64,000 nucleotides of DNA from an uncultured Thermoanaerobaculia bacterium (GTDB taxonomy: Bacteria; Acidobacteriota; Thermoanaerobaculia; Multivoradales; Multivoraceae): contig OX638294.1 of NCBI GenBank assembly GCA_951812325.1, forward strand, positions 3,086,001 through 3,150,000, given 5' to 3'. This document shows positions 328 through 56,231 of the stretch, piece by piece (the stretch's first letter is position 1; each line of letters starts with the position of its first letter). Under the pieces are notes generated by a model. It was not told where the DNA came from and ran no database searches. It saw only the letters and a program-made list of their open reading frames with translations. Position numbers and translations under genes: made by a program.

Positions 328-1020
328 GTGGCAGGCGATCCCATCATCTCCCTCACGGACGTGACCAGGGTCTACCGTCAGGGCAGCGTGGACATCCATG
401 CCCTGCGCGGGCTGACTCTGGAGATCGAGCCGGGCGAGTTCACTGCCGTCTGCGGCCCTTCCGGTTCCGGCAAGACAACCACCCTGAACCTGATCGGTGC
501 GCTCGATTCCGTGACCTCGGGCTCGATCGCGCTCGAGGGACGGGAGTTGGGCAATCTGAACAAGAAGGAGTTGAGCGCGCTTCGCCGCGACCGGATCGGC
601 TTCGTGTTCCAGGCCTACAACCTGATGCCGGTGCTCACGGCCTACGAGAACGCCGAGATGGTGCTCTGGGTCCAGGGCGTCGACGCGGCGACGCGGCGCG
701 AACGGGTGATGGACCTCCTCGATCAGGTAGGACTGAAGGGGTTGGAGGATCGCCGTCCGTCCGAACTGTCGGGCGGGCAGCAACAGCGGGTGGCGATCGC
801 CCGCGCGATTGCCAGCAATCCGGCCGTGGTGCTCGCCGACGAGCCGACGGCGAACGTGGACTCCGAAACCGCGGAGACCCTGCTCGGCCTGATGGAGACC
901 CTCAACCGGGACCAGGGCGTGACCTTCCTCTTCTCGACCCATGATCCGCAGGTGATGGAACGGGCGCGCCGGGTGGTGCGCCTCGTCGATGGCGGCGTCG
1001 CGAGCGACGAGCGCCGCTGA
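328..1020 (+). CDS. ABC transporter ATP-binding protein, LolD/MacB type
   Basis: A 230-residue ATPase that powers the permease encoded just upstream. I chose the GTG at 328, which follows the permease stop by one base; the open frame extends to 247, but that part only overlaps the permease. Walker A is GPSGSGKT, the Q-loop is in FVFQAYNLMP, the signature is LSGGQQQRVAIARA, Walker B is VVLADEP, and the switch His is in FSTHDPQV. The LMPVLTAYEN segment after the Q-loop is characteristic of LolD/MacB ATPases. All catalytic residues are present. Its end overlaps the next gene by 32 bp, suggesting coupled translation. Confidence 0.9.
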   Translation: MAGDPIISLTDVTRVYRQGSVDIHALRGLTLEIEPGEFTAVCGPSGSGKTTTLNLIGALDSVTSGSIALEGRELGNLNKKELSALRRDRIGFVFQAYNLMPVLTAYENAEMVLWVQGVDAATRRERVMDLLDQVGLKGLEDRRPSELSGGQQQRVAIARAIASNPAVVLADEPTANVDSETAETLLGLMETLNRDQGVTFLFSTHDPQVMERARRVVRLVDGGVASDERR

Positions 1021-2314
1021 GCGGCTGCCCCGGCCGGCCGGCGTGGTGGCCGGCGTGCTGCTCGCGGTACTGGCAACGGGCGCCGTCGAGCCGTCGGCCG
1101 CGCAGACCACGGTCGGCGGCGATGTGCGGCTCTTCGCCTTCCAGGTCCTGGAGGAGCTCGATGGCGATGACGGCAGCGACAACGATGGCGGCGAGGACGC
1201 TGCCGAAGGCGCCGTGCCCCGCGGCGCCGGCGGCGTGGAGCTCGGGATCCTGCGACTCAAGCTCGATTCCCGCTGGCGGACGGGATCGCAGGACCGGCTG
1301 CGCCTCGAGGTACACGGCGTGGCGCAGGCGGTCTCGCCGCCCGGCAGCGGTTCCCTGACCTCGGTGGCCACCGGCGCCACGCGGCGCTTCTTCGATCTGG
1401 AGTCCGACTCCTTCGGCGGCGGCGACGTGGCCGGCGCCACCGAGATCGACCGGCTCAATCTGCGCTGGGACCGGCCGGGCTTCCGGATGGTCGCGGGGCG
1501 TCAGGCGATCACCTGGGGCGTGAACTACTTCTGGCCCGTGCTCGACCTGTTCGCTCCGTTCGCGCCGCAGCGGATCGACCGTGCCTACAAGCCCGGCGTC
1601 GACGCGCTTCGGTTCACCGTGCCGGTGGGCGACTTCTCCGAGGTCGAGGTGATCGCGGCAAGCCAGGGGACGCGTACGCCGGACGACCTGAGCTTCGCCT
1701 CGCTGGGCCGTTTCCACAGCGAACTCGGCGAGGGCCCCTCGAGCGTCGACTTCGGCTACATGGTCGGCGGCTTTCACCGCGACTTCGTCCTCGGGGGCTT
1801 CTTCTCGGCCGATGTCTGCGGCACCGGGCTGCGTGGAGAAGTCTCCTGGACCAGTCCCGGCTGCGACCCGCGGAGCGGTCATCCGGTGTTCGGTTGCGGA
1901 GACTTCTGGCGTTCGACGGTCGGTGTCGACCGGCTGCTCACGCCGACCCTGACCCTGATCGCCGAGGCGAGCTGGAACGGTTTCGGGGCCGGCGACCCGG
2001 CGGATTACGCGCGGCTTGCCGATGCCGACCGTGTCCGGCGCGGCGAGGTGGTGTCTCTCGGACGACGCCATGCCGCTCTTTCGCTCGCGTGGCAGGCTCA
2101 TCCGCTGCTGACCGTGAGCGGCGCAGTCCTCTTCAACCGGGAGGATTCCTCGGCACTGTTCCAGCCCGGCATCACCTGGTCCGTGTCCGACCACGTGTCG
2201 ATAGGCGCGGGCCTGATCGGATCGACCGGGCGTGACCTTCGAGACGGGGCGCCGGCCAGTGAGTATGGCGCCGTGCCCGTGGTGGCCTGGTCTTCGCTGA
2301 CTGCCTGGTTCTAG
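989..2314 (+). CDS. Putative outer-membrane beta-barrel protein
   Basis: A 441-residue protein with a signal peptide: basic start, hydrophobic run around residues 18-33, and an Ala-x-Ala-like site near SAAQ at ~38. Alternating hydrophobic and polar residues through the body and a C-terminal Phe (SLTAWF) fit an outer-membrane barrel recognised by BamA. An acidic, low-complexity segment (DGDDGSDNDGGED) follows the signal. A central motif, GRQAITWGVNYFWP, recalls the DUF1302-like barrel group, but I am not certain of the family. It overlaps the ATPase gene by 32 bp, so it is probably the outer-membrane partner or the cargo of that ABC system. No exact function can be given. Confidence 0.6.
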   Translation: MAASRATSAAERLPRPAGVVAGVLLAVLATGAVEPSAAQTTVGGDVRLFAFQVLEELDGDDGSDNDGGEDAAEGAVPRGAGGVELGILRLKLDSRWRTGSQDRLRLEVHGVAQAVSPPGSGSLTSVATGATRRFFDLESDSFGGGDVAGATEIDRLNLRWDRPGFRMVAGRQAITWGVNYFWPVLDLFAPFAPQRIDRAYKPGVDALRFTVPVGDFSEVEVIAASQGTRTPDDLSFASLGRFHSELGEGPSSVDFGYMVGGFHRDFVLGGFFSADVCGTGLRGEVSWTSPGCDPRSGHPVFGCGDFWRSTVGVDRLLTPTLTLIAEASWNGFGAGDPADYARLADADRVRRGEVVSLGRRHAALSLAWQAHPLLTVSGAVLFNREDSSALFQPGITWSVSDHVSIGAGLIGSTGRDLRDGAPASEYGAVPVVAWSSLTAWF

Positions 2315-2393
2315 GGAGTTGTGCGGCAAGGACCGGGACGGCCTCGGACAGGGACCGGAAGCCACCCGGCAAAGGTACAGGTGCGCCGGCCTG

Positions 2394-2597
2394 CCATCCG
2401 TGCGCCCGATGACGTGCGTACGGACTGGTTCGCGGGTGGACGCGGGTCGCGCCACCCTGGGTTCCATCCGTGCGCCCGATGACGTGCGCACGGACTGGTT
2501 CACGGGTGGCGCGGGTCGCGCCACCCTGGGTTCCATCCGTGCGCCCGATGACGTGCGCACGGACTGGTTCACGGGTGGCGCGGAGCGCGCCACCCGG
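2394..2597 (+). repeat. Three tandem copies of a ~70 bp double-hairpin element
   Basis: Three direct repeats start near 2394, 2464 and 2533 (periods 70 and 69 bp). Each contains two inverted repeats. The first is a 9 bp stem, TCCGTGCGC / GCGCACGGA, around a 10-base loop. The second is an 8-9 bp stem, GGTGGCGCG / CGCGCCACC, around a 3-base loop. Copy 1 has changes that keep the first stem (a G-T pair) and put a bulge in the second; copy 3 changes only the second loop (GGT to GAG). No gene is credible here although frames stay open. It lies between the barrel gene and the pstS promoter and looks like a REP/BIME-type cluster. Confidence 0.75.
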
Positions 2598-2665
2598 GTT
2601 CTGGCCGGCTTCCCAGGGAAACACGGCGCGAGGCGGCAGCCTCGCTCCTTGGACGCTGGCGGTTC

Positions 2666-2731: not shown

Positions 2732-3622
2732 ATGAAGCACATGAAGACCTCAAGAGTCACTTCGGCCGGATCCTGTCTGGCGCTGGCCGTTCTGGTTGCC
2801 GCTTGCGGCGGCGGTTCCCGCAACCTGATCCAGAACAAGGGCTCCGACACCCTGGTCAATGTGGCCCAGGCGTGGGCCGAGAGCTACGCCTCCGTGGCGT
2901 CCGAGACCGTCGTCGCGGTGTCGGGCGGCGGGTCGGGGACCGGTATCGCGGCAATGATCAACGGCACGGTCGACATCGCGAACTCGAGCCGCAAGATGAA
3001 GGACTCCGAGATCGAGCTGGCGCGCGGAAACGGCAACGATCCGATCGAGTTCGTCGTCGGCTTCGACGCGCTGGCGGTGTACGTCCATCCCGACAACCCG
3101 CTCGACCAGGTTTCGCTGGAGCAGTTGGCCGAACTCTACGGTGAGGGCGGCGACGTTGACGCCTGGAGCCAGTTGGGCGTCGAGGTGCCCGGCTGCAGCA
3201 GTGACGAGATCGTCCGCGTCAGCCGCCAGAACAACTCCGGCACCTACGTCTACTTCCGCGAGGCGGTGCTGGGCGAGCGGCGCGACTTCAGGCTCGGTTC
3301 GCGCGACATGCACGGCTCGAAGGACGTGGTCGACCTGGTCGAGAACACGCCCTGTGCGATCGGCTACAGCGGCCTCGCCTACGCGACGGACCACGTGAAG
3401 ATGCCCTGCGTCAGGAAGGGCGAGGACGGCGACTGCGTGTCTCCCTCGGTCGAGACGGCGATTGACGGTTCCTATCCGATCGCGCGTCCGCTCTTCATGT
3501 ACACCGCGGGCGAGCCTCAGGGCGCCATTCGGGAGTACCTCGACTGGGTGTTGAGCGACGAGGGCCAGTGCATCGTCTATGAGAAGGGGTACGCGCCGCG
3601 GGGCGACGTGAACTGTTCGTGA
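2732..3622 (+). CDS. pstS: Phosphate ABC transporter, substrate-binding lipoprotein
   Basis: A 296-residue periplasmic phosphate-binding protein that delivers phosphate to PstCA. The N-terminus is a lipoprotein signal with lipobox LVAAC (Cys at ~residue 25), so the protein is probably membrane-anchored. PstS features are GSDTLVNVAQAW near the start, the Ser/Gly-rich phosphate loop SGGGSGTGI, and RQNNSGTYVYF further on. The ATG at 2732 was chosen; a second ATG at 2741 is possible, and neither has a strong ribosome-binding site. It is first in a five-gene operon and is preceded by a Pho box at 2666-2687. Confidence 0.93.
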   Translation: MKHMKTSRVTSAGSCLALAVLVAACGGGSRNLIQNKGSDTLVNVAQAWAESYASVASETVVAVSGGGSGTGIAAMINGTVDIANSSRKMKDSEIELARGNGNDPIEFVVGFDALAVYVHPDNPLDQVSLEQLAELYGEGGDVDAWSQLGVEVPGCSSDEIVRVSRQNNSGTYVYFREAVLGERRDFRLGSRDMHGSKDVVDLVENTPCAIGYSGLAYATDHVKMPCVRKGEDGDCVSPSVETAIDGSYPIARPLFMYTAGEPQGAIREYLDWVLSDEGQCIVYEKGYAPRGDVNCS

Positions 3623-28433: not shown

Positions 28434-32729
<4,296 letters not shown>

Positions 32730-55753: not shown

Positions 55754-56144
55754 CAGCTGCGGCGCTCCGGACGCTCCGGGCGGTTGGTGCGTGGCGTGGT
55801 TCCACAACCATCGGTCGATGGTAGCAACGGTGTGAGCTTGACCTGGTCTGCGGGCACTTCCTTCCTGGAGGAGGAGGAACTCGCGACGCCACGATCAGGA
55901 GCCTGGTACGGACCGGAGGACCACCGGCAGTCCGGAACGTGGCGCCTGCGACGGCTCACCTGCCCGCGACGAGGTCCCGCGAGGTAGCCGCCCCCTGTCG
56001 CCTTCGACTGGGACTGGTTGGCGCCGGGATCCGGTCGTGCTGCCGTCGCTCCGGCAGCGCTCAGACACCCGTCCAGCAAGGCCCGAAGACGGGGCGTATC
56101 GGGCCGCCCTCGATTCGGGGAACGAGGGCGACCGGGGAGCAACC

Positions 56145-56170
56145 CATGTGGCGCGAGCCCGCGCCACATG
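56145..56170 (+). repeat. 11 bp perfect hairpin related to the 2394 repeats
   Basis: CATGTGGCGCG-AGCC-CGCGCCACATG is a perfect 11 bp stem with a tetraloop. It shares the TGGCGCG core with the second hairpin of the element at 2394-2597 and with the element at 11108-11149. Confidence 0.55.
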
Positions 56171-56231
56171 CGATCCGCTCCACTCCGGGCCCGGAGGTCT
56201 TCACGCGACTCGGACAGGTACCTCGGTCATG

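Follow-up and report, generated by a model that had tools for sequence, protein, structure and literature searches.

The window, a stretch of 64,000 nt from contig OX638294.1 of an uncultured Thermoanaerobaculia bacterium (GCA_951812325.1; genome G000 below, 4.63 Mb), carries near its start a gene without Pfam match, a repeat cluster and pstS (Table 1). The cluster was reported by TRF as a single array at 2394-2601 (period 69, 3.0 copies, 95% matches), which holds three tandem units of 68-70 nt with two hairpins in each. The whole feature is somewhat longer, about 2381-2609, since the units are enclosed by two outer arms (2385-2391 and 2603-2609), and the stretch inserted within them measures 207 nt (2393-2599). 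Elsewhere in the window, at 28458-28510, the hexanucleotide AACGGC is repeated 8.8 times with 100% matches.

Table 1. Features of the window around the array, and a second core copy in it. R1, covariance model of the core.
Feature	Position	Strand	Description
Upstream gene	989..2314	+	441 aa, without Pfam match; stop 70 nt before the outer arm
5' outer arm	2381..2392	+	REP head GTGC 2381-2384, arm GCCGGCC 2385-2391, first loop base T 2392; pairs with 2603-2609
Core unit 1	2393..2462	+	70 nt; P2 2398-2423, P3 ~2435-2457, this second stem with one extra A
Core unit 2	2463..2531	+	69 nt; P2 2468-2493, P3 2504-2526; core-model match G000:C1:3088462-3088531
Core unit 3	2532..2599	+	68 nt; P2 2537-2562, P3 2573-2595, loop GAG
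REP loop remainder and 3' outer arm	2600..2609	+	TCT 2600-2602; GGCCGGC 2603-2609
pstS, phosphate-binding protein	2732..3622	+	TIGR02136 221 bits; PF12849
Second core copy, decayed	56141..56200	-	R1 match 40.4 bits, E 1.1e-7

The two hairpins differ within each unit, P2 being formed by CCGTGCGC...GCGCACGG and P3 by GGGTGGCGCG...CGCGCCACCC. With up to 3 mismatches, the P3 pattern GGGTGGCGCG-NNN-CGCGCCACCC occurs three times in the window, once per unit, versus 0.06 expected from shuffles. The P2 pattern matches units 1, 2 and 3 with 1, 0 and 0 mismatches, and alone it is not rarer than chance in the window (5 occurrences at 3 mismatches versus 3.15 expected). Three double-hairpin units of about 70 bp had been described in the original prediction, made from these letters alone, and the TRF array with its one P3 match per unit bears this out. 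Both kinds of difference described there are also present, the stem-keeping C-to-T change in unit 1 (GCGTACGG) and the loop change from GGT to GAG in unit 3.

The RNA fold of positions 2376-2618 has -164.8 kcal/mol (z -7.2) and is better than those of 200 out of 200 shuffles; the outer arms are paired and the units additionally pair with each other. For covariation, the 260 model hits were filtered for distinct copies of almost full length that lie clear of the locus ends, which left 184. From the 117 REP-arm-like copies among them, 66 diverse ones gave the 47 of alignment A1 (19 without clear arms were omitted), while alignment A2 contains 46 of 49 diverse cores from all shells, i.e. all kinds of outer module (three omitted). 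Standard pairs fill 93.5% of the P1/P2/P3 cells in the diverse REP-shelled copies of A1 and 90.8% of the cells in A2, and 17 of 29 and 12 of 22 pairs, respectively, are altered on both sides. Such both-side changes occupy 53 cells in the 47 copies of A1, compared with 9.8 +/- 2.8 in 500 shuffles (none reaching 53) and 6-19 in slid controls, and 39 cells in A2, compared with 8.5 +/- 2.6 shuffled and 5-21 in slid versions, the named structure being favoured over the latter because it was taken from the consensus. RNAalifold alone recovered the stems of A1 only in part (15 pairs, three of them outside the named structure), and therefore the count on the named structure was used. Covariation thus supports the three stems, and the conservation implied by the proposed selection on structure is upheld. 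As all copies share ancestry and were retrieved through their similarity, these counts speak for a kept palindrome and do not by themselves point to an RNA function. Both-side changes outnumber one-side changes (53 to 16 in A1, 39 to 31 in A2), an excess that could hint at correction of DNA palindromes, too weakly for a claim.

When used as a query, the 69-nt unit, hereafter the core, hit numerous other sites in G000. With R1, built from 46 copies, we obtained at least 150 matches in G000 (E up to 1e-3), and at least 70 in each of G000, G016 and G009. Within the order, all 21 genomes of the genus matched and none of 51 genomes from other genera (27 genera; three belong to the same family); in a phylum sample of 199 genomes the 8 matching ones all belong to this genus, with 0 of the 191 others, the filters of both searches losing weak matches. 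The unit is thus not unique to pstS, and the case of a repeat confined to this place and absent from relatives, which the original prediction had left open, is excluded. The exact core pattern was found in at least 87 stretches of named genomes and in none from viral contigs; the titles among the matches listed include MAGs of Holophagales, Thermoanaerobaculia, Acidobacteria, Vicinamibacteraceae (Plut_88883) and Candidatus Multivorans thiocomprendens. We take these MAGs, and the genus, which is known here from MAGs alone, to be sponge or coral associates. The core family is very probably a small mobile DNA carried in many copies by one genus, for the most part nested in another short repeat and occasionally within a gene whose reading frame stays open.

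In 800 kb, 44 core matches were located, 36 in predicted gaps, 6 in predicted genes and 2 partly overlapping genes. Counting tandem units singly, the 36 lie in 25 tandem, 7 convergent and 4 divergent gaps, not far from the background of 186, 56 and 65 predicted gaps of at least 70 nt, gene calls being those of a home-made codon-usage caller. These positions bear on another reading, in which the core would be a structured cis-acting RNA or a small RNA family. The strong covariation in both A1 and A2 fits it, but cores lie in every gap type and also antisense inside genes, matches per genome vary from 8 to at least 150, and the Rfam search of the window at gathering score, made for a known RNA family, returned only two tRNAs; we regard this reading as scarcely credible.

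Arrays occur elsewhere too, with 6 and 3 cores in G016 and with 3, 3 and 2 in G000. The longest one has six tandem cores in a single REP shell (L316 3221-3633, G016:C8). Adjacent units of this array have a change in common, which suggests that arrays grow by tandem duplication.

Rules based on the flanks assigned REP-type arms to 103 of the 184 distinct copies and a second shell, MITE B, to 31, several of the 26 copies classed as 'other' being MITE B variants. The REP is also found without core, as a perfect 7-bp pair of arms (mostly GCCGGCG, GCCGGCC, GCGGGTC or GCGGACC) closing a 4-nt loop. Over all loci, the REP head is followed by such a short-loop hairpin in 126 cases, of which 103 have the loop TTCT, TCCC, TTCC, CTCT or TCCT (mostly one of the first three), and a further 77 have 60-89 nt between the arms, not each confirmed as a core. 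In 400-kb pieces, short-loop and 60-89-nt hairpins number 5 and 4 in G000, and 5 and 7 in G016.

A RAYT gene (PF01797) was detected in 12 of the 21 genomes of the genus, one representative scoring 79.4 bits against NF047646, the REP-associated tyrosine transposase (cut-off 80). Around ten loci, taken from 13 RAYT matches, the 13-mer REP head has 31 matches in 29 kb, or 10.6 per 10 kb, versus densities of 0.31, 0.35 and 0.25 in the three sets used for comparison, and in several of these flanks in relatives REPs are inverted on both sides of the rayt gene. The outer hairpin around the array is thus best described as the REP of a RAYT-type transposase present in relatives. The comparison with REP/BIME clusters made in the original prediction therefore holds for the outer hairpin, enriched at RAYT-type genes in relatives, and fails for the rest, as a Y1 transposase was not detected in G000 and the repeats form a second module, which non-REP shells carry too.

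The whole element could instead be a REPIN or BIME moved by the RAYT of the genus, the core being merely a long REP loop. The distribution of RAYT, the REP density at the ten loci and the inverted REPs beside them agree with this, but the core is present in only 1 of the 10 RAYT loci (L247) and is found in MITE B and D shells too. It is not composed of two inverted REPs either, as P2 and P3 differ and keep the same order in the aligned copies. G000 and its close relative G016, without PF01797 match in one HMM search, contain at least 70 cores each, as does the RAYT-bearing G009, which argues against RAYT as the current mover there. This makes the REPIN/BIME origin quite improbable. Across these three genomes, compared without statistics, a tie between core abundance and RAYT was rejected.

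The MITE B shell has ends of 18-19 bp that match those of a 1491-bp element of the same genome, encoding a 465-aa IS1182-like transposase (PF05598 67.8 bits; NF033551 175 bits, cut-off 270). This element (L200 30-1520, G000:C1:1734672-1736162), with CTAT flanks on both sides, is likely an autonomous IS1182-type element. The 20-base end pattern of MITE B occurs 110 times in G000 with up to 3 mismatches and the reversed pattern 5 times; several of these ends lack a listed partner close by within 3 mismatches. MITE B is 158 bp long without core and 227 bp with it, a difference of 69, and the remainder aligns throughout. Of 28 distinct elements between 158 and 261 bp long, only 2 plainly lack the core (L184 and L201; L192 has another interior); the set is enriched for cores, since many loci were chosen for holding one. 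CTAG-like sequences predominate among the 4-bp flanks of these elements, and the two flanks are identical in only 7 of the 28. When 400 kb each of G000 and G016 were compared, the partner allele of several MITE B copies proved empty, and in two cases the duplication was exact (CTAG and CCAG). G016 has a 227-bp MITE B with core between two permease genes after pstS (flanks ACAG and CTAG), and the corresponding site in G000, at about 4613 of the window behind the first pst permease gene, is empty. The decayed core copy at 56141-56200 has MITE-B-like flanks, as judged by eye.

A third shell, D, is a CTAG-flanked element seen with and without core. Shell C, roughly GGGTCCCAGCGG..G-core-CGCGCTTTCT with approximate ends, was noted at L031, L036, L041, L051, L053, L054, L066 and L104.

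Some cores have no shell and lie inside genes, where about 69 nt correspond to 23 codons. In gyrA of G000 (NF004043, 1193 bits), the core is in frame in the linker of the C-terminal domain (L207 801-868, G000:C1:2720801-2720868) and absent from the 20 other genomes of the genus, which have 14-31 nt there and neighbouring sequences only 77-86% alike. The gyrA stretch is the single full-length match among those listed for G000; 49 nt identical to part of this query are found elsewhere in the chromosome (G000:C1:2948002-2948050). The purH gene of G016 has an in-frame core (L077 2742-2809) where G009 has 11 nt instead of 78, between flanks 97-98% identical in which about 10 adjoining bases differ too. 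None of 20 other genomes has a core in this linker, and a REP-like in-frame stretch is found at the same linker in L288, L289, L290 and perhaps L300. Another in-frame core lies in a periplasmic binding-protein gene (L087, PF01497), and a weaker match of 26 bits is in frame after domain III of dnaX in G000 (L207 16479-16536, G000:C1:2736479-2736536).

Judged by these contexts, the core is a separate module, as the same sequence is found in the loops of REP, of an IS1182-type MITE and of D, and sometimes shell-free in genes. Taking all together, the feature beside pstS is very probably a composite, non-autonomous mobile repeat of variable copy number, with a REP hairpin outside and, inside it, a two-hairpin core of 67-70 nt that follows the first base of the REP loop (typically T^YCY) and stands here three times in tandem. 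On this reading, cores would enter loops through an insertion favouring hairpin tips, and arrays would grow afterwards by tandem duplication. The element would live for the most part as a genomic parasite, tolerated in intergenic stretches and in protein linkers.

The junctions, read by eye, place the core after a T of the loop in three shells, REP (GGCCT^TCTGG and GGCGT^CCCCGCC), MITE B (CATCGT^TGCTCC) and D (GCGAGT^TCTTAGG), the insert having the ends GYCATCC...CGGGT (GCCATCC...CGGGA in D). Terminal inverted repeats were not found at the core ends by eye, and these ends are compatible with a duplication of 0 or 1-3 nt. Elements derived from IS200/IS605 have two subterminal hairpins, no TIR and a fixed left target. 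The core has two hairpins, no TIR and a junction after T; there is no Y1 match in G000 and no autonomous copy in 800 kb, where a partner with P2 and P3 apart was searched for and only truncated or diverged copies were found. Neither an enzyme for the core nor a transposition event was found in the analysis.

We tentatively suggest, as a possibility well short of a probable one, that the core of 69 nt is mobile in its own right and enters gene linkers as well as the tips of other mobile hairpins (MITE loops, the REP loop at T^YCY) by a recombination that recognises hairpins. If true, one inner module would be common to several unrelated carrier families and would supply in-frame peptide inserts to essential proteins.

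The opposite direction has to be weighed, since at one site gain of the core and its precise loss look alike. Core-bearing shells could be ancestral and the core-less ones precise deletions, the core not being separately mobile. Palindromes that lie between short repeats are known to be lost by deletion, and the plainly core-less MITE B copies are few (2 of 28 in the core-enriched set). But one core in unrelated shells requires at least one entry per shell, the core is also present in genes without any shell, and the junction falls after a loop T in three shells, which makes ancestral filling rather unlikely.

The pstS site allows the different states to be compared at one place. We examined the pstS upstream regions of 20 species by means of the core model plus a scan for REP and D, leaving out G032 (49-nt match only). 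The core is present in 5 species, a core-less shell in 4 and neither in 9, while 2 have another upstream gene. G000 has three cores in a REP and G016, whose pstS is 99.6% identical, one core; in G006 and G031 a single core lies within an oppositely directed REP, and in G007 a single core lies within a D element. D without core is found in G001 and G017, and core-less REPs in G011 (two) and G018, so the same carrier was seen there both with and without core. Neither core nor REP nor D was found between stop codon and pstS in G009, G008, G015, G010, G003, G004, G005, G002 and G014. G013 and G012 have a different gene upstream; G013, counted under this class, has a weak core match before pstS (23 bits, E 0.0016). 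As many species lack the element there, a pst locus of this genus can do without it. In all 20 upstream regions a block TTTAC..GTTCAC can be recognised ahead of pstS, with up to 5 substitutions.

According to the original prediction the cluster could stop or process transcripts at this place, and it might be retained because it terminates transcription locally, or serves as an RNA-processing site, in the interval that separates pstS from the upstream gene. Its position, with a stop codon 70 nt upstream and pstS about 120 nt downstream, the very stable fold (z -7.2) and the intact block before pstS are in agreement with such a task. Against it, the search for an intrinsic terminator gave 0 terminator-like sites (a stem followed by a T run) in 2200-2800, 9 of the 20 species have no element there and 4 only a shell without core. 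The unit is moreover scattered over many unrelated sites (150 or more matches in G000, in gap types close to the predicted background), and at least three copies in the genus are in frame inside genes. The role is not supported for this site, and conservation for that purpose is very improbable. As a mobile repeat, the element would add a very stable structure behind the upstream gene, any regulatory task being only conjectural.

Among known systems, the closest in architecture is BOX of Streptococcus pneumoniae and S. suis, with boxA-boxB(n)-boxC, a stable fold and an inner number that varies among strains (PMC3049150, partial text). Here too outer modules enclose from none to several tandem inner modules, 0, 1, 2, 3 and 6 cores having been found within shells. 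In S. suis the same boxB is used within two outer families, A/C and E/F, which gives a precedent for the sharing of inner modules, and both gene disruption and formation of expressed ORFs by BOX are reported (PMC3049150, partial text). The likeness is one of architecture. The core family is GC-rich, its outer part is a RAYT-associated REP or an IS1182-type MITE, and the core also stands alone in genes.

With REP/RAYT systems the element shares a short head followed by a perfect GC-rich palindrome with a short loop, enriched at RAYT-type genes of relatives and inverted around several of them; it differs in its head, CTGGGTGC instead of the GT(A/G)G of the REPs described (PMC2817692, partial text). 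It differs also in that G000 has no detectable RAYT and that the loop carries a second module. IS elements are known to insert in REP sequences (PMC1525189, partial text), so that REP hairpins would in both cases be targets of another mobile element, but the core has about 69 nt and no transposase gene. The likeness to IS1182-type MITEs, through the 18-19 bp ends shared with the 1491-bp element and the CTAG-like flanks, is restricted by the array of the window being outside a MITE B shell and by the transposase scoring below the NCBIfam IS1182 cut-off. Like the RPE of Rickettsia, the core is a palindromic element in frame inside unrelated genes (gyrA, purH and the binding-protein gene); unlike RPE, of about 150 bp, it measures about 69 nt, 36 of 44 sampled matches are in predicted gaps, and it belongs to another phylum (PMC10969869, partial text).

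By this analogy, the composite repeat would work like pneumococcal BOX, with in-frame insertions like those of Rickettsia RPE in addition. No publication title naming such a repeat family in these bacteria was found in the literature searched, many subscription papers being outside it; as far as this literature goes, the genus is new, and so are the allele series and the use of both REP and IS1182-type carriers by a single core.

The behaviour of BOX in streptococci and the in-frame palindromic inserts of Rickettsia would thus meet in one repeat family in a genus of Acidobacteriota (PMC3049150 and PMC10969869, partial texts), where a single site shows empty, core-less and filled alleles across 20 species. 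The spread of an inner module between unrelated carriers becomes testable by comparison alone, and so does the question of how frequently genes such as gyrA take up a mobile hairpin as additional coding sequence.
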